From Pseudomonas abieticivorans (lineage in GTDB: Bacteria; Pseudomonadota; Gammaproteobacteria; Pseudomonadales; Pseudomonadaceae): DNA of 64,000 nucleotides. The notes under the pieces were generated by a model that was given only the letters and a program-made list of their open reading frames with translations, was not told where the DNA came from and searched no databases. Of this stretch, positions 1-12,362 are shown piece after piece (the stretch's first letter is position 1; each line of letters begins with the position of its first letter). The DNA lies in the NCBI RefSeq assembly GCF_023509015.1, contig NZ_CP094975.1, positions 6,193,501-6,257,500 of the forward strand, written 5' to 3'. A program made the translations under genes and the position numbers.

Positions 1-225
1 AACGATGTCGACCACGAACCGCGCAAGCTCCGTGCGCTCGGCCAGGCTCAAAAACTGCATTTCACTGGACTGGCACACGGCGAACAGCGCGTCGCAACCG
101 TGCTGCAGGTACCACTCGATCAAACGCTCGACGCCGCGATAGTCAATGGCGCCGCTGGCATCAAAGGGGGTCAGCATCACCGGGACAATGCCTTCGATAA
201 CAACCGGGGTAACTCGTGTACTCAT
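1..225 (-). CDS. DHDPS/KDG-aldolase family protein (partial, runs off left edge)
   Basis: Only the first 75 codons are inside the window; the gene continues leftward. The reading starts MSTRVTPVVIEGIVPVMLTP and goes on with FDASGAIDYRGVERLIEWYL, which is the N-terminal strand-helix of the dihydrodipicolinate synthase/N-acetylneuraminate lyase superfamily (G-x-x-x-x-x-x-T-P-F plus the first barrel helix). These class I aldolases or dehydratases form a Schiff base on a lysine that lies beyond the edge. The ATG is 22 bp after the stop of the MFS carrier gene on the same strand, so the two are probably co-transcribed and act on the same sugar acid or amino-acid derivative. The specific substrate cannot be told from this fragment. 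Confidence 0.8.
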   Translation of the reverse strand, partial: MSTRVTPVVIEGIVPVMLTPFDASGAIDYRGVERLIEWYLQHGCDALFAVCQSSEMQFLSLAERTELARFVVDIV

Positions 226-247
226 AAACGGGCCTCTGGGGCAGTGT

Positions 248-1591
248 TCAAACGTGGGAAACGGCGGGTGCGGCCACCACCGGCGCAGGCGTGGCCCGGG
301 CCTCGGGTATCGGTTTGCGCACCAGTAACAGGTAGGCCAGCGCACCCACCAACGCGATGCCGGCACCGGTCAACAGGGCCGGTTGGAAGCTCCAGGTCTG
401 GGCGATGTAGCCGGTCAGGATCGGTGCCAGGGCGCCGCCCAGGAAGCCGCCGAAGTTCTGGATCGAACCCAGCGACGCCACCCGGTTGGCGGGCGCCACG
501 GCGGTGGCCAACGACCAGGCGCAGGCCGAGGAGGCATTGGCCAGGAAGATCACGATGGAGATGCATGCCAGGGCGATGACGTTGCTGTCCACCAGCGCCG
601 CAGGCACGGTGAACACCACCATGCCGAGCATGGCGATGACCATCGAATTGCGCCGCCCCAGCACCGCCGAGCGGCTGCGTTTGGCGATGCGATCGGACAC
701 CCAGCCGGCCACCAGGGCGCCGACAAAGCCGCAGAAAAACGGCACGGCAGCCGCCGCCCCGGTCATTTCCAGGCTCATGTGCCGGGCCGTGCGCAGGTAG
801 CCGGGCAACCAGGTCAGGTACACCCAGTTCAGGTACACCGAACCCATGTAGCCGAGCAACATGCCCCAGGTGGTGCCATAGGAAAACAACGCGCGCCAAT
901 CGGCAAAGGTGACCTTGGGCGCGGCCGCCTTGGCGGGCGATTCATCGGCGTACAGGTAGAGGCGCTCGGCCTCGGTGAGGTCGGCCTTGACCGGGTCGCG
1001 ATAGACCACCAGCCAGATCACCGCCACCACCAGCCCGGCGGCGCCGGTGAGGTAGAACGCCCAGCGCCAGTCAAGGTTGGCGATCAGCACCGACAGGCAC
1101 AGCGGGGCCAGGGCGATGCCCAACGGCGAGGCCGAGTTGAAGATGCCGGTGGGCGTGCCGCGCGACCGTAGCGGGAACCAGTTGCTGACCACCCGGGCAG
1201 CGGACGGGAACTGCGGCGACTCGCCGATGCCCAGTATCACCCGCGCCAACACGAACCAGCCAAAGCTGGACACCAGGCCACCACTGGCCTGGGCCAGCGA
1301 CCACAGCACCAGGCCGCCGCCCAGCAACCAACGCGGCCCGATGCGGTCGACCAGCGCGCCGACGGGCAATTGGCACAGGGCATAACTCCAGGAAAACGCC
1401 GAGAGCAGGATGCCCATTTCCCCCAGGGACAAGTTCAAGTCGGCACGCACGAACTCGTTGGCCACCGCGAGCGTGCCGCGGTCCAGGTAGTTGATCACGC
1501 CGCTGATCATCAACAGCGTCAGGGCAATGGTTTGCTGGCGCCGAATGCGTGGGGGCACCAACAGGGCAGAGTGGGCTTCGTTCATGTTCAT
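248..1591 (-). CDS. MFS transporter, anion:cation symporter (sugar-acid) type
   Basis: About 447 residues with the usual twelve hydrophobic segments. The N-terminal NYLDRGTLAVANEFVRADLN and the loop-2 motif GALVDRIGPRW are typical of the ACS branch of the major facilitator family, which imports glucarate, galactonate, tartrate and similar organic anions. I place the start at the ATG at 1591; the ATG at 1585 is equally possible and has AAAGAGA about 8 bases upstream. An upstream in-frame extension to 1648 is rejected because it is basic and has no ribosome site. It is followed after 22 bp by a DHDPS-family gene and faces a divergent LacI regulator, a common sugar-acid catabolic arrangement. 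Confidence 0.85.
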   Translation of the reverse strand: MNMNEAHSALLVPPRIRRQQTIALTLLMISGVINYLDRGTLAVANEFVRADLNLSLGEMGILLSAFSWSYALCQLPVGALVDRIGPRWLLGGGLVLWSLAQASGGLVSSFGWFVLARVILGIGESPQFPSAARVVSNWFPLRSRGTPTGIFNSASPLGIALAPLCLSVLIANLDWRWAFYLTGAAGLVVAVIWLVVYRDPVKADLTEAERLYLYADESPAKAAAPKVTFADWRALFSYGTTWGMLLGYMGSVYLNWVYLTWLPGYLRTARHMSLEMTGAAAAVPFFCGFVGALVAGWVSDRIAKRSRSAVLGRRNSMVIAMLGMVVFTVPAALVDSNVIALACISIVIFLANASSACAWSLATAVAPANRVASLGSIQNFGGFLGGALAPILTGYIAQTWSFQPALLTGAGIALVGALAYLLLVRKPIPEARATPAPVVAAPAVSHV

Positions 1592-1824
1592 GTCTCTTTT
1601 AGTCTTATTTTTGGACAATGCGCCCCTGCCACGGCGGCCAGTGGGCATCGCTCGGAGGCAGGGTCAATGAAACGTCGTGACGGGCCAGAATGTAACCGCA
1701 CATCATAGTTGACGTAAACGTTGCTATCGAATCATGAACCAGTGCATACGTAACGATTCAGGTTTGAAAATAAGGCCCATTCGATATTTTGTCTAGCGCT
1801 TACATCCTAGAATTATCGCTTCGT

Positions 1825-1849
1825 CAAAGTCAATCGTGCGTTGACTTTG
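1825..1849. repeat. Perfect 9-bp inverted repeat overlapping -35 of the LacI gene
   Basis: CAAAGTCAA and TTGACTTTG are exact reverse complements separated by TCGTGCG. The right arm supplies TTGACT, a good -35 hexamer for the downstream LacI gene; a 17-bp spacer leads to TAGGTT. A protein bound here would block RNA polymerase. Confidence 0.55.
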
Positions 1850-1868
1850 CCACGACCCCCGCCTAGGT

Positions 1869-1883
1869 TAAGCGCACCGCTTA
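1869..1883. promoter_or_regulatory. Candidate LacI-family operator
   Basis: TAAGCG-CAC-CGCTTA is a perfect 15-bp interrupted palindrome 22 bp before the LacI start codon. Its half-site is shared with the TAGCGCTTA near-palindrome at 1794-1802, so the neighbouring LacI protein may bind both. No binding data are available to me. Confidence 0.4.
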
Positions 1884-1904
1884 CTTCGATGTTTACCCGC
1901 ACCC

Positions 1905-2987
1905 ATGACGGTTCCAGCAGACACCCCGCTTACCTCGCCCTCGCCTTTCAAAGACGCCAACGAACCGGTACTTGCCGACGTCGCCCGCATTGCAGGCGTC
2001 TCCACCGCCACCGTGTCGCGCTATTTGAATGAGCCGCAACGGGTCAGCGAAAAAACCCGCGCCAAAGTCCGCCACGCCATCGAGCAGTTGGACTGGGTGC
2101 CCAACGCGGCGGCGCGCTCGCTGGTGTCCCGGCGCTCCTACGCCATTGGCGTGATCATCCCGACCCTGGCCCACGAAAAATTCCACCAGCAACTGCAAGC
2201 CTTCCAGAGCCGCCTGGGCGAGCACGGCCTGGCGGTGTTCGTGGCGTGTTCTTCTTACGATCCAGATGAAGGCTATCGCCAGGCGCGCGGCATGCTTGCC
2301 CGCGGCGTCGATGCCTTGGCGCTGCTGGGCGATGATTACCCCGACGCATTGTTCGAACTGCTCAAGGCCAAGGGCGTGCCTTACATCGTGACCTTCGGCA
2401 AGCGCGTCGGCAGCCCCCACCCTTGCGTGGGTTTTGACCACGGGCGGGCCTATGTCGCCATCACCCGGCGCTTGCTGGAGCTGGGCCATACGCGCCTGGG
2501 GGTGATCTTCCAGTCGCCTGCTGGTAACAGCCGCGTGCAGGCCAGGCTTGAGGCCATCGATGCCACCTTGGCCGAACATGGCCTGGCGATGCGCCCCCCG
2601 CATAGGGCCATCATGGGCACGACTTCGGATGCCGGGCGGGTGCCGTTCGCTCGCGCCAGCTTGCAGCACATCATGGCCCAGCAGCCCGCCCCCACCGCCC
2701 TCATCTGCGGCAACGACATGCTGGCCCTGGGCGCGTTGCTTGAAGCTCAGGCGCTGGGTATCGAGGTACCAGGGGCGCTGTCGATCTGTGGTTTTGACGA
2801 CATAGAGATCGCGGCGCACACCCACCCGCCCCTGACCACGCTGCGGGTGCCTGACCAGGCAATCGGTGAGTTGGCCGCGCAGTATTTGATTGATCGCCTG
2901 GCAGGCTTGCCCTGTGAAGACCCGGCTATGCTGGAGGTGGTGCTGATTGAGCGCGCGTCGACCGCCCAGGCGCCTAACGCTGACTGA
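1905..2987 (+). CDS. LacI family transcriptional regulator
   Basis: 360 residues. The LacI helix-turn-helix is clear at about residues 21-66 (VLADVARIAGVSTATVSRYL, then the hinge NAAARSLVSRRSYAIGVIIP). The remainder is a periplasmic-binding-protein-like effector domain ending in the usual ICGFDDIEIA and TTLRVP motifs. The ATG at 1905 gives a 20-residue leader before the HTH, longer than usual; a shorter start cannot be excluded. It is divergent from the MFS/DHDPS genes and most likely represses them until a sugar-acid intermediate binds (inference). Its 3' end overlaps the next, convergent small gene by 14 bp. Confidence 0.9.
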   Translation: MTVPADTPLTSPSPFKDANEPVLADVARIAGVSTATVSRYLNEPQRVSEKTRAKVRHAIEQLDWVPNAAARSLVSRRSYAIGVIIPTLAHEKFHQQLQAFQSRLGEHGLAVFVACSSYDPDEGYRQARGMLARGVDALALLGDDYPDALFELLKAKGVPYIVTFGKRVGSPHPCVGFDHGRAYVAITRRLLELGHTRLGVIFQSPAGNSRVQARLEAIDATLAEHGLAMRPPHRAIMGTTSDAGRVPFARASLQHIMAQQPAPTALICGNDMLALGALLEAQALGIEVPGALSICGFDDIEIAAHTHPPLTTLRVPDQAIGELAAQYLIDRLAGLPCEDPAMLEVVLIERASTAQAPNAD

Positions 2988-3240
2988 GCAGCTCGTTGCG
3001 CCGGCGTTTGAGATTGGCCTGGCGCTTGGCAATGTCGGCGGCCAACTCGGCAAGTTTTTTCTCGCCCTCGGCCAAGGCGGCTTCACGCGAACCATACAGC
3101 TCGCACACCGGGTAATTGCGGCCATTTTCGGTGCGGTCGAACGCGTCGCTGGAAAACCCGCGGGCGACCAGCTCGATTTCTTGCAGCTGGAAGCTGCGGG
3201 TCAGCAACCAGGCGGTGTAGGGGTAGGTTCGCTGCAACAT
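2974..3240 (-). CDS. Conserved-looking hypothetical protein, 88 aa
   Basis: I do not recognise a family. The ATG at 3240 has AGGA about 10 bases upstream. The protein has no membrane segment or signal peptide. Its C-terminal half (REAALAEGEKKLAELAADIA onward) is charged and heptad-like, consistent with a short coiled coil, and ends KRRRNELLSQR. The N-terminal half is aromatic (TYPYTAWLLTRSFQLQEIEL). The gene is convergent with the LacI gene (14 bp overlap) and divergent from the bestrophin gene, so it shares the 3293-3320 palindrome and may belong to the same regulon (inference). Confidence 0.6.
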   Translation of the reverse strand: MLQRTYPYTAWLLTRSFQLQEIELVARGFSSDAFDRTENGRNYPVCELYGSREAALAEGEKKLAELAADIAKRQANLKRRRNELLSQR

Positions 3241-3292
3241 TCTGGCATTCCTGCGGCCGGCTCCCGGGGCCTATTATTAACAGGGCCCACTC

Positions 3293-3320
3293 ATCGCTAT
3301 ATAGTAAATCATATAGCGAT
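3293..3320. promoter_or_regulatory. Mo-box-like operator 1 (ModE-type palindrome)
   Basis: ATCGCTATAT and ATATAGCGAT are perfect 10-bp arms separated by 8 bases. The classical ModE operator has the form CGnTATAT...ATATAnCG with the same 8-base interval between these arms (established knowledge, from memory). It lies 43 bp before the bestrophin GTG start and 52 bp upstream of the divergent 88-aa gene. Two more copies with the same geometry occur at 4977-5004 and 6849-6876. Confidence 0.7.
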
Positions 3321-3362
3321 ACCCATCGCCTCAAAAAACCTGTTCCGGAGTGCTCAACGGCC

Positions 3363-4277
3363 GTGATTACCCGCCCGCAAAATCCCACCACGCTGACGTT
3401 GCTGTTTTCGCTCAAGGGTTCGATCATCCCCGCGATCTGGCGCAAGGTGCTGTTCACCGTGCTGATCAGCTCGGCCGTGGTGGCCATCCACGGCACCCTG
3501 TTGAGCTTCAAGTTCAGCCTGACCGCCACGCCCTTCACCTTATGGGGCCTGACCCTGGCGATCTTCCTGGGCTTTCGCAACACCGTGGCTTATCAGCGCT
3601 TTTGGGAGGCGCGCACCCTGTGGGGGGAAATGTTGATCGTGTGCCGTAACCTGACCCGCCAGACGCTCAGCCTGCTGCCCGCCTTGCCCCGCGAACAACG
3701 CCGGCCATTGGCCAATGGGCTGATCGGCTTTGCCTACCTACTCAAGCACCAACTACGCGGCACGGCCCCCGGGGCCGAGGTTGCGCCTTTTTTGGACGCC
3801 GACACGCAAGCGGCGCTCGGCAAGCAAAACCCGCCCAGCGCACTGCTCGGCCGGCTGGCCGAGCGCTACCTGGCCGCGGCAAGGCAATCGGGCGCCAGCG
3901 ACGTGGCGCAAATGAACATCGACCAACAGCTCACGCGGCTGTCTTACGTGTTGGGCGGCTGCGAGCGGATCAAGGGCACGCCCATCCCCTACCCTTATAT
4001 TTTGCTGCTGCACCGCACCGTGCACGTGTACTGTTTTTTGCTGCCGTTTTGCCTGGTGGACAGCATCGGCTGGTTCACCCCGCTGGCGGTGTGCATCCTG
4101 GCGTATACGTTTTTTGGGCTCGATGCCCTGGGCGACCAGATCTCCGACCCGTTCGACACCCAGCCCAACGACCTGCCGCTGGATGCCATGTGCCGGAACA
4201 TAGAGATTGCCGTGCTGGAGTTGCTGGACGAGCCAGCACCGGCGCCGTTGCAGCCGGTGGAGGGGGTGTTGCTTTAA
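3363..4277 (+). CDS. Bestrophin family anion channel-like membrane protein
   Basis: 304 residues beginning at a GTG (MITRPQNPTTLTLLFSLKGS) with GGAG 12 bases upstream. The order of features matches bacterial bestrophins (UPF0187): an N-terminal helix with SLKGSIIPAIWRK, a long hydrophobic helix, then LGFRNTVAYQRFWEAR-type sequence that follows the pore helix, and a C-terminal IPYPYILLLHRTVHVYCFLL helix plus DDLG-like DALGDQISDPFDTQPNDLPL. Family members form pentameric anion channels in the inner membrane. The palindrome at 3293-3320 is immediately upstream and recurs beside the molbindin, DipZ and TetR genes, suggesting shared control. The ion carried is unknown. Confidence 0.85.
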   Translation: MITRPQNPTTLTLLFSLKGSIIPAIWRKVLFTVLISSAVVAIHGTLLSFKFSLTATPFTLWGLTLAIFLGFRNTVAYQRFWEARTLWGEMLIVCRNLTRQTLSLLPALPREQRRPLANGLIGFAYLLKHQLRGTAPGAEVAPFLDADTQAALGKQNPPSALLGRLAERYLAAARQSGASDVAQMNIDQQLTRLSYVLGGCERIKGTPIPYPYILLLHRTVHVYCFLLPFCLVDSIGWFTPLAVCILAYTFFGLDALGDQISDPFDTQPNDLPLDAMCRNIEIAVLELLDEPAPAPLQPVEGVLL

Positions 4278-4298
4278 GCGGGGGATTGCGGCGACCGG

Positions 4299-4383
4299 TT
4301 CGCGGATTTAACCGCGAAGCGGGCGCCTTGGCACAGCTGATACACCGCGTCGTTCTTTTCGCGGATAAATCCGCTCCTACGGG
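4299..4383. repeat. REP-type repeat pair
   Basis: TTCGCGG-ATTTAA-CCGCGAA (4299-4318) is followed by TTCGCGGATAAATCCGCTCC (from about 4358) in the same family as the elements at 14546, 47180 and 57476. It sits between the convergent bestrophin and molbindin genes and may serve as a transcription barrier. Confidence 0.7.
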
Positions 4384-4413
4384 GTCACGCCTGCCTGAAT
4401 GATTCGGCCACGG

Positions 4414-4842
4414 TTACTTGGGCACGCCCAAAATGATGTGCGAGGCCTTGATCACCGCCGTGGCGCTCACGCCCACTGCCAAACCCAGCTCCTGGACGGC
4501 GTGGCGGGTGACGATCGAATACACCTGCGCCCCACCCGGCAGCTCCAGCACCACTTCGGCGTTGACCGCGCCGTCGGTGACGCTGACCACCTTACCTTCC
4601 AGGCAGTTGCGCGCCGACAGCCGGAAATCATCGGCTTCGGTCATCAGCATCACCCAAGGGGCCTTCACCAACGCCACCGCAGCGGCACCGGCCACCAGCC
4701 CCAGGGACTTGACGCTGGCCAGCGTCACCACTGCCACCAACGACTCGCCGCCCGGCAGCGCCAGCACCACCTCGGCATTGACCGAGCCTTCCTGAACCTG
4801 GCTGACGGTACCTTTGAACACGTTGCGGGCACTGACTTTCAT
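4414..4842 (-). CDS. Twin-Mop-domain molybdate-binding protein (molbindin)
   Basis: 142 residues made of two tandem Mop/TOBE domains of about 70 residues: MKVSARNVFKGTVSQVQEGS at residue 1 and the matching RLSARNCLEGKVVSVTDGAV at about 74. Each has the G-x-V-x-x-V-x-x-G-x-V-N-A-E-V signature and a conserved SVKSLGL or AVQELGL helix. Such di-Mop proteins bind molybdate or tungstate oxyanions at subunit interfaces and store or buffer them in the cytoplasm. AAGGA is 8 bases before the ATG. The gene is divergent from dipZ with an 8-base-spaced ModE-like palindrome at 4977-5004 between them. No modABC transporter or modE gene is in the window. Confidence 0.92.
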   Translation of the reverse strand: MKVSARNVFKGTVSQVQEGSVNAEVVLALPGGESLVAVVTLASVKSLGLVAGAAAVALVKAPWVMLMTEADDFRLSARNCLEGKVVSVTDGAVNAEVVLELPGGAQVYSIVTRHAVQELGLAVGVSATAVIKASHIILGVPK

Positions 4843-4976
4843 GGTGTAGATCCTTTTTTATGGGCAGTTGCAAATATCCCCCATCATCAACAAACACGTT
4901 ATGTCATTTCAACCATAGCGAAGGGTCAGGCCTGCAAGTCTTCATAGAAGGGTTTTCTTCTGTTTTCATGGGGGTA

Positions 4977-5004
4977 TTCGCTATATCTTTTACTATATAG
5001 CGAC
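4977..5004. promoter_or_regulatory. Mo-box-like operator 2
   Basis: Arms TCGCTATAT (4978-4986) and ATATAGCGA (4995-5003) are exact reverse complements around an 8-base spacer. It lies between the divergent molbindin and dipZ genes, 135 bp and 105 bp from their respective starts, so it can influence either. Confidence 0.7.
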
Positions 5005-5108
5005 TACTCCGGCGCAGGTATCACAATTTGTTTAAGTGACCGTGAGGATTCGGGGAATCGCACTGCGCCAAGCTCCACACTACTCACTCTGCTCAGGCCG
5101 ATACGACC

Positions 5109-6842
5109 ATGCTGCTACTTATCCTCGCCTACCTCGGCGGGGTGCTGACTATCGTCAGCCCCTGCATCCTGCCGGTTTTACCGTTTGTATTCGCCCGCAC
5201 CGGGCAACCGTTCGTGCGCAGCGGCCTGCCGTTGCTGGTGGGCATGGCCATGACCTTTGCCCTGGTGGCTACCCTGGCCGCCGTGGGCGGTGCCTGGGTG
5301 GTGCAACTCAACCAGTACGGGCGGTGGTTGGCCTTGGTGTTCGTCGCATTGTTCGGCTTGACCTTACTATTTCCCACGCTGGCCGACCGCCTGACCCGGC
5401 CCCTGGTCGCCGCTGGCAGCCGGCTCTCGGAAGCCGCCGGGCATGACAGCCGGCCCCGCCCGGGTGCCTCGTTTTTGATCGGCATCGCCACCGGCCTGCT
5501 CTGGGCCCCGTGCGCCGGGCCGATCCTGGGCCTGGTGCTGACCGGCGCCGCGCTGCAAGGCGCCAGCGTAGGCAGTACGTTGCTGTTGCTGGCTTACGCC
5601 GCAGGCGCCGCCACCTCGCTTGCCGTCGCGCTGTTGCTGGGCGGCAAGGTGTTCGCCGCCATGAAGCGCTCCATCGGTGCCGGTGAATGGGTACGCCGTG
5701 GCTTGGGCGCGGCCATGTTGCTGGGTGTGGTGGCGATTGCCTCGGGCCTGGACACCGGACTGCTGTCGCAGGTGTCCACCGCGTCCACCGGGTCGCTGGA
5801 ACAGGGCCTGGTCGATCGCCTGGCCAACCGGCAAGGCCAAGCAATGAAAGTGGCCAACAAGCCCGACGCCGTGCTGCCGATCGAAGGCGACCTGCCGGCG
5901 CTGGACGGCGCCGTGCAATGGCTCAACTCGCCGCCCCTGAGCGCGCAGGCGCTGCGCGGCAAGGTGGTGCTGATCGATTTCTGGACCTACTCGTGCATCA
6001 ACTGCCTGCGCACCCTGCCCTACGTCAAGGCCTGGGCCGACAAGTACCGCGACCAGGGCCTGGTAGTGATCGGCGTGCACTCGCCGGAGTTCGCCTTCGA
6101 GCAGAACGTGGGCAACGTCACCCAGGCCATGAAAAAACTGGGTATCACCTACCCCGTGGCCATCGACAACGACTTCAAGATCTGGCGCGCCTTCGACAAC
6201 CAGTACTGGCCCGCCCACTACTTTGTCGACGCCAACGGGCATATCCGCTACCACCACTTTGGCGAAGGCGCCTACGAGGAATCCGAGCGAGTGATCCAGA
6301 GCCTGCTGCGCGAAGCCGGGCACAGCGGCGTGGCCAATGACAGGGTATCGGCCCAGGCTGGCGGCGTGGAGCAAGGCTCGGACAAGGCCGACGTGGCCTC
6401 GCCGGAGACATATGTCGGTTACCGGCGCTCGGAGCACTTTGCCTCCACCCCCGACATCGCCGCCGATACCGCGGCCGCCTACCGCCTGCCCGCCCAACCC
6501 AGCTTGAACCAATGGGGGCTGGAAGGCCGTTGGATGATCGGTTCTGAAAACGCTTCGCTGCAAGGCCCCACCGGCAAGATCGCCTACCGCTTCCATGCCC
6601 GCGACCTGCACCTGGTGCTGGGGCCGGGGGCGGATGGCAAGCCGGTACGCTTTCGCGTGATGATCGATGGCAAGGCGCCCGACGATGCCCATGGCAGCGA
6701 TGTGGGTGCAGACGGCAGCGGCATGGTCACGGAGCAACGCCTGTATCAGCTGCTGCGCCAACCGGGAGCGATCACCGACCATACCTTCAGCATCGAGTTT
6801 ATGGACCCCGGGGTCTCGGCTTACGCGTTTACCTTTGGTTAA
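5109..6842 (+). CDS. DipZ-like protein: DsbD/CcdA membrane domain fused to thioredoxin-like domain
   Basis: 577 residues. Residues 1-215 form six hydrophobic helices with the two CcdA redox cysteines in SPCILPVLP (Cys19) and WAPCAGP (Cys135). Residues about 265-400 form a TlpA/thioredoxin-like domain with the active-site CINC at 296-299 (FWTYSCINCLRTLPYVKAWA). The C-terminal ~170 residues match the beta-rich extension of DipZ proteins. These proteins move reducing power from the cytoplasm across the inner membrane to extracytoplasmic thiols. It is flanked by ModE-like palindromes on both sides, which would place thiol redox under molybdate control (inference). No cytochrome c maturation genes are adjacent. 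Confidence 0.9.
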   Translation: MLLLILAYLGGVLTIVSPCILPVLPFVFARTGQPFVRSGLPLLVGMAMTFALVATLAAVGGAWVVQLNQYGRWLALVFVALFGLTLLFPTLADRLTRPLVAAGSRLSEAAGHDSRPRPGASFLIGIATGLLWAPCAGPILGLVLTGAALQGASVGSTLLLLAYAAGAATSLAVALLLGGKVFAAMKRSIGAGEWVRRGLGAAMLLGVVAIASGLDTGLLSQVSTASTGSLEQGLVDRLANRQGQAMKVANKPDAVLPIEGDLPALDGAVQWLNSPPLSAQALRGKVVLIDFWTYSCINCLRTLPYVKAWADKYRDQGLVVIGVHSPEFAFEQNVGNVTQAMKKLGITYPVAIDNDFKIWRAFDNQYWPAHYFVDANGHIRYHHFGEGAYEESERVIQSLLREAGHSGVANDRVSAQAGGVEQGSDKADVASPETYVGYRRSEHFASTPDIAADTAAAYRLPAQPSLNQWGLEGRWMIGSENASLQGPTGKIAYRFHARDLHLVLGPGADGKPVRFRVMIDGKAPDDAHGSDVGADGSGMVTEQRLYQLLRQPGAITDHTFSIEFMDPGVSAYAFTFG

Positions 6843-6848
6843 TCCGCT

Positions 6849-6876
6849 ATCGCTATATAGTTTTGTATATTACGAT
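6849..6876. promoter_or_regulatory. Mo-box-like operator 3
   Basis: Left arm ATCGCTATAT matches operator 1 exactly; the right arm ATATTACGAT matches at 8 of 10 positions; the spacer is again 8 bases. It lies 46 bp before the TetR start codon and 6 bp after the dipZ stop, so it would control tetR separately from dipZ. Confidence 0.6.
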
Positions 6877-6922
6877 TCTCCTCACCGGCGCCTCGAGCGC
6901 CGGGCTTAATAAGGAATTCGCG

Positions 6923-7603
6923 ATGTACATCATGCCGTTCGACCCACAGTTCGACGTCAACCCCGCGCCGAACGAGCCGAGCGAACACCCGGAGCCGGTG
7001 CGCGAACTGATCATCAAGGCAGCCGGCGAGGCCTTCGCTCGCGAGGGCTACGCGGCCACCACGGTCGCCAGCATCGCCCTGATGGCCGGGCTGCCCAAGT
7101 CCAACGTGCTGTACTACTTCAAATCCAAGGACAACCTCTACGCCCAGGTGCTGGAAGACATCGCGCCGCCCTACCTGAACGCTTGCATGCCGCTCAAGGC
7201 CGACGACGAGCCATTCGCGGCCCTGACTGGCATGGTGACCGCGATGATCAGCCTGTTCGAGCGTCAGCCGTTCGCCGCCAAGGTGTTCATGATCGAACTC
7301 AAGGAGGGCGCCCGGCGGCTGCCCGGCGAAACCTTCGAGCGCTGGTCGGTCCAGGCCCAGAAAAGCGTCGCCAGCCTGCGCCAGTGGATCGACCGCGGGT
7401 TGCTGGCACCGGTCGACCCGGAGCATGTGCTGCTTTCGCTGTGGGCCATTGCGCAGTCGTGTGTGAGCCTGGGTTGGCAGATCCCCAGCGTGCGCGGCCA
7501 GGGCATTGATTACCAGGCTGCCGCCAGCACGGCGACACGGTTGCTGCTCAGTGGCCTGACGCCGGCATCGCCGGCGCTGATGCGGCGTGCCGTTCACGGA
7601 TAA
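6923..7603 (+). CDS. TetR/AcrR family regulator, RutR-like C-terminal domain
   Basis: 226 residues starting at the ATG at 6923, which has AAGGA 7 bases upstream; the longer reading frame from 6863 runs through the operator and is rejected. The TetR helix-turn-helix is at about residues 25-70 (IIKAAGEAFAREGYAATTVA then AGLPKSNVLYYFKSKDNLYA). The C-terminal part (FAAKVFMIELKEGARRLP and PVDPEHVLLSLWAIAQSC) resembles RutR/YcdC. The ligand is unknown. It may autoregulate or control the bestrophin-molbindin-dipZ genes; the flanking palindromes could be its own sites instead of ModE sites. Confidence 0.88.
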   Translation: MYIMPFDPQFDVNPAPNEPSEHPEPVRELIIKAAGEAFAREGYAATTVASIALMAGLPKSNVLYYFKSKDNLYAQVLEDIAPPYLNACMPLKADDEPFAALTGMVTAMISLFERQPFAAKVFMIELKEGARRLPGETFERWSVQAQKSVASLRQWIDRGLLAPVDPEHVLLSLWAIAQSCVSLGWQIPSVRGQGIDYQAAASTATRLLLSGLTPASPALMRRAVHG

Positions 7604-7637
7604 ATCCGCGCCTGGCCACGAAAGCGCCGCCATGCTC

Positions 7638-8564
7638 TTAATCGCCGCTTGCGCCCTGAAGCGCACCCAGGCGCGCCATGCGGTCGCGCATGTCCCCAAG
7701 CGCCAGCAAGGCTGCGCGCGACAATTGGCGGTGCGGCGCCACGCAGATCGACAGCACCGGGTGGCTGACATGAATGCCCGTCAGCGGCACAAAAGCCAGG
7801 GACTTTTGCGCCACCTCGCTGGCCACGTCCAGCCACGACAGCATGCCAATGCCCACGCCCTGGCGGATCAGTGAGCGCATCATGCGCAGGTCGTTGCAGG
7901 CCACCCGTTGGCGCACGTCCAGGTGCAGTTGGTCGTGCAGCGTGCGCACGTGCGTGTGCACCACCAGGGGCTCTGCAGGGAAGATCACCGTTTCGCCTTG
8001 GGTCTCGCTTAGCCGCAGGCTTTTTTTGCCGGCCAAGCGGTGCGTCACCGGCATGGCGATGCCCATCTTGATCTCGGTGCTGGCGTTGATGCTCAACTGC
8101 GCGCTGTTGCCGGCATCGAGCATGAAGCCGAAATCCACTTCGGCACTGCTGATCATCTGCGCGACTTTCTGGTTGTCGGCCACCTTCATGCCGAACGTCA
8201 GCCCCGGGTACTGCGCCATCAACGCGGCCACCGCCTCTGCCACCAGGCCTTCACTGAGCGCATCGATCAAGCCGATGTCCACGTGGCCGCGGCGCAAGCC
8301 CTGCATCTCGTCGATCTGCTCGCGGGTGCGGGCGTAGTCCTTTTGCCATTGCCGGGCGTTGGCCAACACCAGCTCCCCGGCCGAGGTCAGCCGCAGGCCG
8401 CCGGGCAGGCGCTCGAACAGCGGCACGCCCAGCTCTTGTTCGACCGTGAGGATCTGCCGGTCGATGGCCGAAGCCGAGACGTGCAGCACCTCGGCGGCCT
8501 GGCGAATGCTGCGGTGCCGGGCCACTTCCAGGAAATAGCGAGTGAAGCGCGAGAAGGGGAACAT
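7638..8564 (-). CDS. LysR family transcriptional regulator
   Basis: 308 residues from the ATG at 8564 (MFPFSRFTRYFLEVARHRSI) with AAAGG about 8 bases before it. The winged HTH is at residues 1-65 (RQAAEVLHVSASAIDRQILT) and the rest is a LysR substrate-binding fold with HVDIGLIDALSEGLVAEAVA as its first strand. It is divergent from the Rieske oxygenase gene with 112 bp between the starts, the standard layout for a LysR activator of an adjacent catabolic gene (inference). The longer frame up to 8816 overlaps the oxygenase promoter and is rejected. Confidence 0.9.
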   Translation of the reverse strand: MFPFSRFTRYFLEVARHRSIRQAAEVLHVSASAIDRQILTVEQELGVPLFERLPGGLRLTSAGELVLANARQWQKDYARTREQIDEMQGLRRGHVDIGLIDALSEGLVAEAVAALMAQYPGLTFGMKVADNQKVAQMISSAEVDFGFMLDAGNSAQLSINASTEIKMGIAMPVTHRLAGKKSLRLSETQGETVIFPAEPLVVHTHVRTLHDQLHLDVRQRVACNDLRMMRSLIRQGVGIGMLSWLDVASEVAQKSLAFVPLTGIHVSHPVLSICVAPHRQLSRAALLALGDMRDRMARLGALQGASGD

Positions 8565-8676
8565 GTGTTGCCTTTTTTGCAACGCGATGGTGAAAAAACG
8601 ATGCTGGAGTTCATCACGTCGCCCCCCTAAAGTCCATCCCAAAGCGCCCTGCAGAGCGCCTCGCCGCCCAGACCCG

Positions 8677-9723
8677 ATGAGTGAACCGCCCATGATCAAA
8701 GACCGCTCCCTACCGCTGCACTGCACCTTCATCGAAAGTGACTGGCGCATTCTGGCGGCCCATTGGTACCCCATCGCGCAGTCGGCTGCCGTGGGCCAGG
8801 CACCGATCAAGGCCATGCTGCTGGACGAACCCCTGGTGCTCTACCGCCTGGGTGACGAACTGGTGGTAGCGCGGGACGTGTGCCCGCACCGTGGAGTGCC
8901 GCTAAGCATGGGCAAAAGCGACGGCCAAGGCGTGGTGTGCGCCTACCACGGCTTGCGCTTTGGCCACGGCGGGCGCTGCAACAAAATACCCGCCAGCCCC
9001 AACGGGACGATCCCGGCGCGCATGGCCCTGTTCACCTACCCTGCGATCGAACGCTACGGCCTGGTGTGGACCTGCCTGGACCCACAGGACAACGGCGTCG
9101 ACATCCCGACCATGCCCCATTGGGAAGACCCGCAGTTCCAGCAGATCATTTGTCCCACCGTCGACATCCAGGCCTTTGCCGGCCGTCAACTGGAGGGCTT
9201 TCTGGACGTCGCACACTTCGGCTTCGTGCACACCGACACGTTCGGCGACCCCGACAACACCCAGATCCCGCCCTACCGCCCCGTGGAAACCGGCAAGGGC
9301 TTTGAAGTGCACTACAACAGCTCGGTGGGCAACTACCCCATCGGCATCGATGGCAAGGTGTGCGATGACTTCAATTGGCTGCGGCACTTCCAGGTGCACT
9401 TGCCCTTCACCGCCACCCTGACCGTGCACTTTCCCAACGAGGGTCGGCTGGTGATCATGAACGCGGCGTCGCCGGTATCGTCAAAAGTTACCCGGCTGTT
9501 CGCACCCATCGCGCGCAATTTCGACAAGGACCTGCCGGTGGAAGACTGCCATGCCTTCAACCTGAAGGTGTTCGAGGAGGACCGGCTGATCGTCGAATCG
9601 CAAAGGCCCGAACGCCTGCCGCTGGACCCGATGCTGGAGGTGCACATCCCGGCGGACATGAGTTCGATCGCCTACCGCAAGGGGCTGCGCAACCAGGGTT
9701 TGAGCCAATTTTTCCTCTACTGA
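8677..9723 (+). CDS. Rieske non-heme iron oxygenase, alpha subunit
   Basis: 348 residues from ATG 8677 (ATG 8692 is an alternative; neither has a strong ribosome site). The Rieske [2Fe-2S] site is complete: CPH at Cys69/His71 and CAYH at Cys88/His91. The mononuclear iron site shows DVAHFGFVH with His180 and His185 plus Asp177 nearby. Such enzymes hydroxylate or O/N-demethylate aromatic acids using electrons from a separate reductase. No reductase or ferredoxin gene is adjacent, so it must borrow one from elsewhere. Relatives in my memory include vanillate demethylase and toluenesulfonate monooxygenase oxygenase components; the substrate is unknown. The divergent LysR gene is the likely regulator. 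Confidence 0.88.
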   Translation: MSEPPMIKDRSLPLHCTFIESDWRILAAHWYPIAQSAAVGQAPIKAMLLDEPLVLYRLGDELVVARDVCPHRGVPLSMGKSDGQGVVCAYHGLRFGHGGRCNKIPASPNGTIPARMALFTYPAIERYGLVWTCLDPQDNGVDIPTMPHWEDPQFQQIICPTVDIQAFAGRQLEGFLDVAHFGFVHTDTFGDPDNTQIPPYRPVETGKGFEVHYNSSVGNYPIGIDGKVCDDFNWLRHFQVHLPFTATLTVHFPNEGRLVIMNAASPVSSKVTRLFAPIARNFDKDLPVEDCHAFNLKVFEEDRLIVESQRPERLPLDPMLEVHIPADMSSIAYRKGLRNQGLSQFFLY

Positions 9724-9809
9724 GCCGCGCAAACTTCCCTGGCCGGCGCTGGAAACCGCCCCCCCTGCCACCCCAGCCCTTCGCGAAAAAGGGCCGGGGC
9801 CAGGTTGCC

Positions 9810-10439
9810 TTACTTGGCTGTCAGCGCGGTGTAGCTGTTCATCAGATTGCGGTAGTTGGGAATACGCTGCGACAGCAGGTTACCCAGCCCTTCGATGTCG
9901 TTGCGCCAGTCGCGGTGCAGCTCGCAGGCCACCGCGAACCAGTTCATCAGTTGCGCGCCAGCCGCGCTCATGCGTGCCCAGGCCGCCTGTTGCACGGTGG
10001 TGTTGAAGGTGCCGGAGGCGTCGGTGACCACGAACACATCAAAGCCTTCGGCCAAGGCGCACAGGGTGGGGAACGCCACGCACACGTCGGTCACCACGCC
10101 TGCGATGATCAATTGCTTGCGGCCGGTGGCCTTGATGGCCTTGACGAAATCTTCGTTGTCCCAGGCGTTGATCTGCCCTGGGCGCGGGATGTAGGGGGCG
10201 TCCGGGAACATTTCCTTGAGCTCGGGCACCAGCGGGCCGTTGGGGCCGTTTTCAAAACTGGTGGTGAGGATGGTCGGCAGGTTGAAGAACTTGGCGCAGT
10301 CGGCCAAGGCCAACACGTTGTTCTTGAACTCGTTGGGGGTGAAATCCTGAACCAGCGAGATCAAACCGGTCTGGTGGTCGACCAGCAACACCACGGCATC
10401 GTCTTTGTTCAGGCGTTTGTAACCGTCTACTTGGCTCAT
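9810..10439 (-). CDS. ycaC: YcaC-like cysteine hydrolase (isochorismatase family)
   Basis: 209 residues, close to E. coli YcaC over the whole length as I remember it (VVLLVDHQTGLISLV, TSFENGPNGPLVPELK, NAWDNEDFVKAIKATG, AGVVTDVCVAFPTLCA). The isochorismatase-type triad is visible with Asp21 and Cys120. YcaC proteins are octameric to higher-order rings with an unassigned hydrolase substrate. It is the last gene of a likely DoxX-amidohydrolase-YcaC operon, 36 bp after the amidohydrolase stop, so it may act on a product of the amidohydrolase (inference). Confidence 0.9.
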   Translation of the reverse strand: MSQVDGYKRLNKDDAVVLLVDHQTGLISLVQDFTPNEFKNNVLALADCAKFFNLPTILTTSFENGPNGPLVPELKEMFPDAPYIPRPGQINAWDNEDFVKAIKATGRKQLIIAGVVTDVCVAFPTLCALAEGFDVFVVTDASGTFNTTVQQAAWARMSAAGAQLMNWFAVACELHRDWRNDIEGLGNLLSQRIPNYRNLMNSYTALTAK

Positions 10440-10475
10440 CTCTGACTCCTTGGTAAGGGATAGGTTATTGCAGCA

Positions 10476-12314
10476 TCAAAAGGCAAAACACGAGCACCCG
10501 AAGGCGCCCCAAAAGCCTTGGAAATCACTGACTGGCACATTCGACAGGCGCGCCCGTTCATGGGTGTGGGCATGTACGCCGCATGGCCCGCTGCACTGGT
10601 GCACTTGCGCTTGCAGGGGTTGGCTGGCCCGCCAATGCCCGGACACCTTGACCACCGGCGACCAGTCCGGCAGCACCGGTACCTGGGGCGGCGACAGCGC
10701 TTGGAAATCGCCGTCGGCATACACGACCTGACCGTTTACCACGGTCAATACCGACTCGATCCACTTGATCGCTTCTTCATCGACCGTGAAATAGTCCGCG
10801 CTCAAGGCCACCACGTCGGCCAGTTGGCCCACCTTGACCTGGCCCTTCTTGCCTTGTTCGGACGAGAACCAGGCACTGCCATGGGTGTACAACTCCAGCG
10901 CCACCTCGCGCGACAGACCTTCGGGGTGCAGCGCCAGGCCGCCCACCGTCTTGCCGCTGACCATCCAATACAACGAGGTCCAGGGATTGTAGCTGGACAC
11001 CCGGGTGGCGTCGGAGCCGGCGCCCACCGGTACGCCCTCGGCCAGCATGCGCTTGATCGGTGGCGTGGCCTCGGCCGCCTTGGCGCCGTAGCGGTCGACA
11101 AAGTATTCGCCCTGGAAGGCCATTCGGTCCTGGATGGCGATGCCACCGTTGAGCGCCCTCACCCGCTCGATGTTTTTCGGCGTGATGGTTTCGCAGTGGT
11201 CGAAGAACCACGGCAGGCCGTTGAACGGCACGTCGCGGTTGACCTTCTCGAACACGTCGAGCATGCGGCTGATCGATTCGTCGTAGGTGGCGTGCAAGCG
11301 GAATGGCCAACGATGCTCGACCAGGTGGCGCACCACCGGTTCCAGTTCCTGCTCCATGGTGTGTGGCAAGTCTGGACGAGGCTCCAGGAAGTCCTCGAAG
11401 TCGGCCGCCGAGAACACCAGCATCTCGCCGGCGCCGTTGTGGCGCAGAAAGTCATCGCCCTGATGCAGGGTGACGCTGTGGGTCCAGTTCTTGAAGTCTG
11501 CCAGCTCTTCCTTGGGTTTTTGGGTGAACAGGTTGTAGGCGATGCGCACGGTGAGCTGTTGCGCCTTGGCCAACTGCTCGATCACTTGATAGTCGTCCGG
11601 GTAATTCTGGAAACCGCCGCCGGCGTCGATCACGCTGGTCAGGCCCAGGCGATTGAGTTCGCGCATGAACTGGCGCGTGGAGTTTACCTGGTATTCCAGC
11701 GGCAGCTTGGGGCCCTTGGCCAGGGTGGCGTAGAGGATCATCGCGTTGGGCCGCGCCACCAGCATGCCGGTGGGGTCGCCGTTGCTGTCGCGCACGATCT
11801 CGCCGCCTGGCGGGTTGGGTGTGTCGCGGGTGTAGCCGGCCACGCGCAGGGCGGCGCGGTTGAGCAAGGCGCGGTCGTACAGGTGCAGCACGAATACCGG
11901 CGTGTCGGGGGCCGCGGCGTTCAATTCTTGCAGGGTGGGCATGCGTTTTTCGGCGAACTGGAATTCATTCCAGCCGCCCACCACCCGCACCCATTGCGGC
12001 GTGGGGGTGCGGTCGGCCTGGTCCTTGAGCATGCGCAGGGCGTCGGCCAGCGACGGCACGCCTTCCCAGCGCAGTTCCAGGTTGTAGTTCAAGCCACCGC
12101 GGATCAGGTGCAGGTGGGAGTCGTTAAGCCCGGGGATGACCGTGCGGCCCTTGAGGTCAATGACCTGGGTGCCGGTGTCGCGGTAAGCCATGGCGTGGGC
12201 ATCGGTGCCCACGGCGATGAACCTGCCGTCCTTGATCGCCACGGCGCTGGCCTTGGGCTTTTCACGGTCAACGGTATGGAATTGTCCATTGAAAAGAATC
12301 AGATCGGCGTTCAT
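10476..12314 (-). CDS. YtcJ-like metal-dependent amidohydrolase
   Basis: About 612 residues from the ATG at 12314, which has AAGGA 6 bases upstream. The amidohydrolase superfamily pattern is present: N-terminal beta sandwich (ADLILFNGQFHTVDREKPKA), metal motif GLNDSHLHLIRGG, later HATYDE, FDHCETI and GAGSDATRVSSYNPW, and the closing QLADVVALSADYF sandwich. The C-terminal ~70 residues after VVYADGDF are an extension with CSGPCGVHAHTHERA and a terminal GCSCFAF, rich in Cys and His. Substrate not known. It sits between DoxX and YcaC genes in one operon under a likely LysR regulator. Confidence 0.87.
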   Translation of the reverse strand: MNADLILFNGQFHTVDREKPKASAVAIKDGRFIAVGTDAHAMAYRDTGTQVIDLKGRTVIPGLNDSHLHLIRGGLNYNLELRWEGVPSLADALRMLKDQADRTPTPQWVRVVGGWNEFQFAEKRMPTLQELNAAAPDTPVFVLHLYDRALLNRAALRVAGYTRDTPNPPGGEIVRDSNGDPTGMLVARPNAMILYATLAKGPKLPLEYQVNSTRQFMRELNRLGLTSVIDAGGGFQNYPDDYQVIEQLAKAQQLTVRIAYNLFTQKPKEELADFKNWTHSVTLHQGDDFLRHNGAGEMLVFSAADFEDFLEPRPDLPHTMEQELEPVVRHLVEHRWPFRLHATYDESISRMLDVFEKVNRDVPFNGLPWFFDHCETITPKNIERVRALNGGIAIQDRMAFQGEYFVDRYGAKAAEATPPIKRMLAEGVPVGAGSDATRVSSYNPWTSLYWMVSGKTVGGLALHPEGLSREVALELYTHGSAWFSSEQGKKGQVKVGQLADVVALSADYFTVDEEAIKWIESVLTVVNGQVVYADGDFQALSPPQVPVLPDWSPVVKVSGHWRASQPLQAQVHQCSGPCGVHAHTHERARLSNVPVSDFQGFWGAFGCSCFAF

Positions 12315-12362
12315 TGGGGTTCCTTCACTGTAGGGGAGCGTGGACAAAGGGCCTGCCGCACC

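Follow-up and report, generated by a model that had tools for sequence, protein, structure and literature searches.

Three probable ModE operators at a bestrophin, molbindin, dipZ and tetR cluster of Pseudomonas abieticivorans

The window analysed here, a 64,000-nucleotide stretch of Pseudomonas abieticivorans DNA, lies at 6193501-6257500 of the single contig (6,715,763 bases) that makes up the genome. Near its left end a cluster of genes encoding a bestrophin, a molbindin, a DipZ-like thioredoxin protein and a TetR-type regulator is interspersed with three palindromes of the pattern ATCGCTATAT-N8-ATATAGCGAT (boxes 1 to 3; Table 1). With up to 3 mismatches allowed, the pattern has exactly three matches in the 64-kb window, at the positions given by an earlier reading made from the sequence alone (the sequence-only reading), and with the arm pairs it had counted (10, 9 and 8 of 10 for boxes 1, 2 and 3); 100 dinucleotide shuffles of the window gave zero matches. 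The names which that reading gave to the genes also hold, although it overlooked an orphan gene of 88 codons that diverges from the bestrophin gene across box 1. An Rfam scan of window positions 1-12000 found no element at gathering score.

Table 1 Boxes, genes and other features of the cluster and its surroundings (window coordinates).
Feature	Coordinates	Strand	Description
88-amino-acid orphan gene	2974-3240	-	no Pfam or NCBIfam match
Predicted sigma-70 promoter of bestrophin	3277-3305	+	TTAACA-17-TATAGT, 10/12; -10 hexamer inside box 1
Box 1	3293-3320		predicted ModE operator between divergent orphan gene and bestrophin; 0 mismatches; 40.1 bits
Bestrophin	3363-4277	+	Bestrophin_2, PF25539, 343.9 bits
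Molbindin	4414-4842	-	two Mop/TOBE domains; TIGR00638, 154.6 bits
Possible relic of M24 gene end	4926-4949	-	between box 2 and molbindin; five identical residues and stop in register; E 1.3, weak
Box 2	4977-5004		predicted ModE operator between molbindin and dipZ; 2 mismatches; 39.8 bits
DipZ-like thioredoxin protein	5109-6842	+	DsbD_TM match just under Pfam cut-off
Box 3	6849-6876		predicted ModE operator before tetR; 2 mismatches; 34.7 bits
TetR regulator, RutR-like	6923-7603	+	PF00440, PF08362
Rieske oxygenase	8677-9723	+	neighbour in window, without own box; 52% identical to boxed M47T1 protein

The sequence-only reading had equated the palindromes with the classical ModE operator, and two comparisons support it. 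Against the Escherichia coli ModE consensus, ATCGNTATATA-[N6]-TATATANCGAT as given in PMC545781, boxes 1, 2 and 3 match 19/20, 17/20 and 19/20 of the fixed positions (1, 3 and 1 mismatches). A 28-bp matrix, built from 34 distinct boxes that precede modA in genomes other than that of P. abieticivorans, gives all three boxes the high scores listed in Table 1, while the next site in the window reaches 6.4 bits and the top score in five 400-kb order-2 Markov sequences is 6.5. As a positive control, the same matrix at a threshold of -2 bits places one site each before modA (20.0), moaA (30.7) and dmsA (27.4) of E. coli K-12. Identification of the palindromes as ModE operators is thus strongly supported on all sequence evidence gathered.

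A search of the whole genome with the 26-bp core (up to 3 mismatches) found six places, and the reversed-pattern control none. The three sites outside the window precede modABC (27.0 bits, 3 mismatches), modE (18.4 bits, weak) and an operon encoding a FecCD-type permease, an ATPase, a TonB receptor and a periplasmic binding protein (36.6 bits). ModA, ModB and ModC each score above an NCBIfam cut-off. ModE itself is encoded (TIGR00637; 102.5 bits, above the cut-off of 98.5), carries a helix-turn-helix domain (HTH_1) and two TOBE stretches, and aligns over nearly its full length to E. coli ModE (1o7l, 1.3e-37). The sequence-only reading had proposed a compact molybdate-responsive regulon apart from modABC, to be checked by a search for shared boxes at modABC and given up if the genome's modABC had none and only the local TetR bound them. 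Since boxes precede both modABC and modE, and ModE is encoded, this ground for giving it up falls away, and a ModE-responsive regulon is supported; its confinement to the local cluster is not, because modABC, modE and the TonB/FecBCD-type operon carry boxes too. No molybdenum cofactor or molybdoenzyme gene has a box genome-wide at up to 3 mismatches, the limit of this search, below which weaker sites were not sought.

Among the matches listed in a survey of 149 genomes of the genus (box defined as up to 2 mismatches of the 26-bp core), a site is present in 105/149 genomes, compared with 3/149 for the reversed control. ModE was detected at E<=1e-15 in 143 of the 149; again among the matches listed, the box occurs in 103 of these 143 and in two of the six genomes without detected ModE. 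Where loci were inspected (30 sites among the matches listed and 40 further regions, some around the same sites), modA stands behind a large share of the boxes. The same 149 genomes were also searched starting from the proteins, with up to 30 loci per query and a box defined as at least 12 bits. The 210 loci selected by protein (1.65 Mb with overlaps included, and without the genome's own copies) contain 56 distinct boxes of at least 15 bits, 54 of which lie within 260 bp upstream of a reference gene (for two this is a Rieske oxygenase gene, added after the boxes had been seen); the other two are located inside a Methylobacillus bestrophin gene and before a LysR-type gene (L223). A further gene, encoding an M24 metallopeptidase-fold protein of ~220 amino acids (PF00557), recurs behind the box in relatives.

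The orphan protein has six homologs besides itself, hypothetical where named, and a box lies upstream of its gene in all five full-length matches (own included), the single fragment match being without one. The best of five structure models of the orphan protein reaches a predicted local distance difference test score (pLDDT) of 89.7, against about 60 in the other four, and the predicted fold has no match in the PDB at E<=0.001 (best, weak Tudor/SH3-like barrels, E 0.36 and above). The bestrophin (residues 1-298) aligns over its full length with solved structure 4wd7 (5.3e-64), and its predicted promoter is the better of two sites in 2950-7000, where shuffles give 0.4. Ten genomes of the genus (own included) encode a bestrophin of at least 68% identity, three with a box; among 61 named bestrophin loci (one only a partial match) a box is found in six. 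It precedes the gene in Pseudomonas sp. M47T1, gamma proteobacterium L18 and Pseudomonas sp. T1-3-2 (M47T1 and T1-3-2 recur in the genus set as G086 and G051). A weak 12.3-bit box lies between the M24 and bestrophin genes of P. alcaligenes MRY13-0052, and in the bestrophin locus of P. typographi the box precedes M24, not bestrophin. Box 1 is the predicted common operator of bestrophin and the divergent orphan gene, the orphan gene being, by these counts, the better conserved partner. The site in Methylobacillus caricis (25.0 bits; L161:7397-7424), ModE-like and within the bestrophin coding region, may be due to chance.

The gene that the sequence-only reading had taken to bind molybdate does, by homology (1h9j, TIGR00638), encode a molbindin: residues 1-141 match the molybdenum-binding protein 1h9j over the full length (1.3e-47), with two Mop stretches and no helix-turn-helix domain found in Pfam and NCBIfam scans. 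Boxes are present in 11/30 molbindin loci and lie upstream of the gene in ten, directly in seven and through M24 in three. Orthologs of dipZ have a box in 3/30 loci (own included), all of them loci in which dipZ is the neighbour of M24 or molbindin, and in G051 dipZ adjoins molbindin with no box there. As the majority of dipZ orthologs have none, box 2 most likely belongs with molbindin, and dipZ is probably a bystander; on the same count box 2 was rejected as mainly a dipZ operator.

Loci of M24 orthologs carry an upstream box in 29/30 cases, and the one locus without it (L209) has a site of 9.0 bits in the expected position; as seven of the 30 M24 genes were first met via a box, the count free of this selection is 22/23. 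In M47T1 the orientation of box, M24 and molbindin is opposite to that of dipZ, and in G023 the order M24-box-dipZ, then box-TetR, is that of the window with M24 replacing molbindin. M24 was not found in P. abieticivorans at E<=1e-40. No member of the subfamily was found in 369 genomes of the class at E<=1e-50, a negative that shows little because the set held no genome known to have M24. The possible relic between box 2 and molbindin (Table 1) hints that an M24 gene has been deleted from this locus.

The TetR regulator has RutR structures as its nearest solved relatives (about 1e-23) and scores 113.6 bits in the RutR equivalog test, short of the cut-off of 368, and is thus RutR-like only. Among 30 TetR loci, a box is found upstream in 6/6 close orthologs (55-68% identity, plus own) and in 0/24 of another subfamily (44-47%). 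Boxes also occur at more distant TetRs (36-44%), whether these adjoin an M24 gene or not, so that the split follows gene lineage and not identity alone. Box 3 before tetR is a conserved feature. Operator identity, the presence of ModE and conservation of boxes before several of these genes can all be read from the sequences compared.

Pseudomonas genomes hold intergenic palindromic repeats, and the boxes might be members of an unrelated dispersed family of this kind, or chance occurrences. The absence of matches from 100 shuffles and from the reversed control, a total of only six sites in 6.7 Mb, the matrix scores, box placement across the 210 loci, and the conservation of positions before genes despite differing flanks led to rejection of this explanation, the probability of which is practically nil. 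The palindromes could also be operators of the neighbouring TetR, forming a local autoregulated circuit without ModE, since box 3 and tetR are 46 bp apart and the box is retained at close TetR orthologs. This is highly improbable, and TetR-only operators were rejected: many genomes that have no close TetR ortholog carry the same box at modA, so the local TetR is not needed for it; boxes also precede modA and modE of P. abieticivorans and three ModE targets of E. coli, and the other TetR subfamily is without a box in 24/24 loci.

The reading we favour, and consider very probable, is that the boxes are ModE operators which place the cluster, together with modABC, modE and the TonB/FecBCD-type operon, in a Pseudomonas ModE regulon repressed by molybdate-loaded ModE. 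With ample molybdate in the cytoplasm, ModE loaded with it would sit on the box and block transcription, at bestrophin by covering the predicted -10; with molybdate scarce, ModE would leave and the genes would be expressed, the derepressed set comprising the orphan gene and bestrophin (box 1), molbindin (box 2) and tetR (box 3). What we infer is that ModE binds, that it represses these genes and does not activate them, and that their products have a part to play in molybdenum shortage. In E. coli modA is the classical repressed ModE target, and repression is favoured here because box placement resembles that at modA: the median distance from box end to gene is 61 bp for modA (n=39), 33 for M24 (n=32), 54 for TetR (n=17) and 48.5 for bestrophin (n=4). 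ModE also activates moaA and dmsA in E. coli, where its record calls it a dual regulator, and it might likewise bind here and activate some genes under ample molybdate, such as those for molbindin, to store it, and for bestrophin, to provide an overflow channel. Homology makes molbindin a molybdate-binding protein, and box 2 is 134 bp away from its gene, both of which fit activation. We nevertheless regard it as unlikely, given the position of the bestrophin -10 inside box 1, the modA-like box distances of TetR, M24 and bestrophin, and the higher level of the Rhodobacter capsulatus Mop protein without molybdenum (161 vs 3.0 fmol; PMC6925177).

Several observations weigh against the favoured regulon. 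The box of the genome's own modE is weak and that of modA scores below all three window boxes. The bestrophin box is limited to few relatives (3/10), 55 of the 61 named loci being without a 12-bit box, and boxes are likewise missing from 19/30 molbindin and 27/30 dipZ loci. Two of the six genomes lacking a ModE hit carry a box among the matches listed. Moreover, one might sooner expect a storage protein such as molbindin under ample molybdate.

The known functions of ModE mostly concern the control of molybdate uptake, of the synthesis of the cofactor, and of certain molybdoenzymes or nitrogenases. The system described here shares its regulator, its operator and modABC as a target with the E. 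coli regulon (modABC, moaA, dmsA), but its targets include bestrophin, molbindin, TetR, the orphan gene and the TonB/FecBCD-type operon. Molbindin resembles over its full length 1h9j, which we take to be the ModG-type molbindin of Azotobacter vinelandii; here its gene lies opposite dipZ across a box, and in relatives it often follows M24. The bestrophin similarly matches 4wd7, presumably the Klebsiella protein KpBest, over its full length, with ModE control predicted here. According to PMC6925177, MopA and MopB of R. capsulatus repress modABC, morAB and anfA (activator of the molybdenum-free nitrogenase), a comparable case of ModE-type repression with molybdate at Mo-boxes beyond modABC, in which a molbindin (Mop) responds to molybdenum; the extra targets there serve nitrogen fixation, whereas no nitrogen-fixation genes were met at boxes here. 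As ModE regulons extending beyond modABC are known, the finding is of a known kind. Among the papers listed in searches of the literature, which did not extend to regulon compilations, no title or abstract opening describes control by ModE of a bestrophin, an M24 peptidase or a TetR, and the only match for bestrophin with molybdate concerns CysZ. The target set is thus new within the literature searched, although earlier predictions may already include part of it. What the boxes add is a shared predicted signal for bestrophin, the orphan protein, TetR and M24: genes lacking an assigned role (bestrophin, orphan, M24, TonB receptors) are tied to a testable one, molybdenum status. This suggests routes by which Pseudomonas could acquire molybdenum or manage without it, and would widen the reach of ModE.

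The TonB receptor and the FecBCD-type permease, ATPase and binding protein encoded by the operon behind the 36.6-bit box (L012:2769-7620) may serve to import a chelate of molybdenum. Receptors of this type were found in seven genomes, five with a box, which lies before a permease-led operon in four (own included) and directly before the receptor in one (G146). A second type of TonB receptor has boxes in L016, L026, L046 and L058, two boxes in three of these, and in L046 is followed by a gene for a solute-binding protein.

Rieske oxygenase genes with a box of their own, next to the orphan gene and separate from other boxes, are found in M47T1 (L113:3820-4966; 34.5 bits) and T1-3-2 (L114:9984-11126; 34.2 bits), two cases that are hardly independent because the proteins are 95% identical. 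The nearest structures of the M47T1 protein are SxtDIOX and SxtT, with NdmA next; that of the window Rieske protein is the methylxanthine demethylase NdmA (1.2e-44). A boxed Rieske oxygenase is possibly a molybdenum-free substitute enzyme. This leads to a more far-reaching and quite doubtful proposal, a molybdenum-sparing switch in which shortage would derepress modABC and the TonB/FecBCD-type importer, here supposed to carry a molybdenum chelate, and, in relatives, also an NdmA-related molybdenum-free Rieske oxygenase that would replace a molybdenum hydroxylase (e.g. xanthine dehydrogenase), along with bestrophin, the M24 metallohydrolase and the orphan protein.

Beside tetR, window positions 7638-12320 hold genes for a LysR-type regulator, the NdmA-like Rieske oxygenase, a YcaC-type hydrolase and a large amidohydrolase, which together look like a small catabolic gene group. 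In P. typographi, M24 and a 17.8-bit box have as neighbours LysR and Rieske genes 81-82% identical to those of the window. Elsewhere, an OprD-family porin gene (2619-3980, minus strand) has a 31.7-bit box (L060:4034-4061) beside it.

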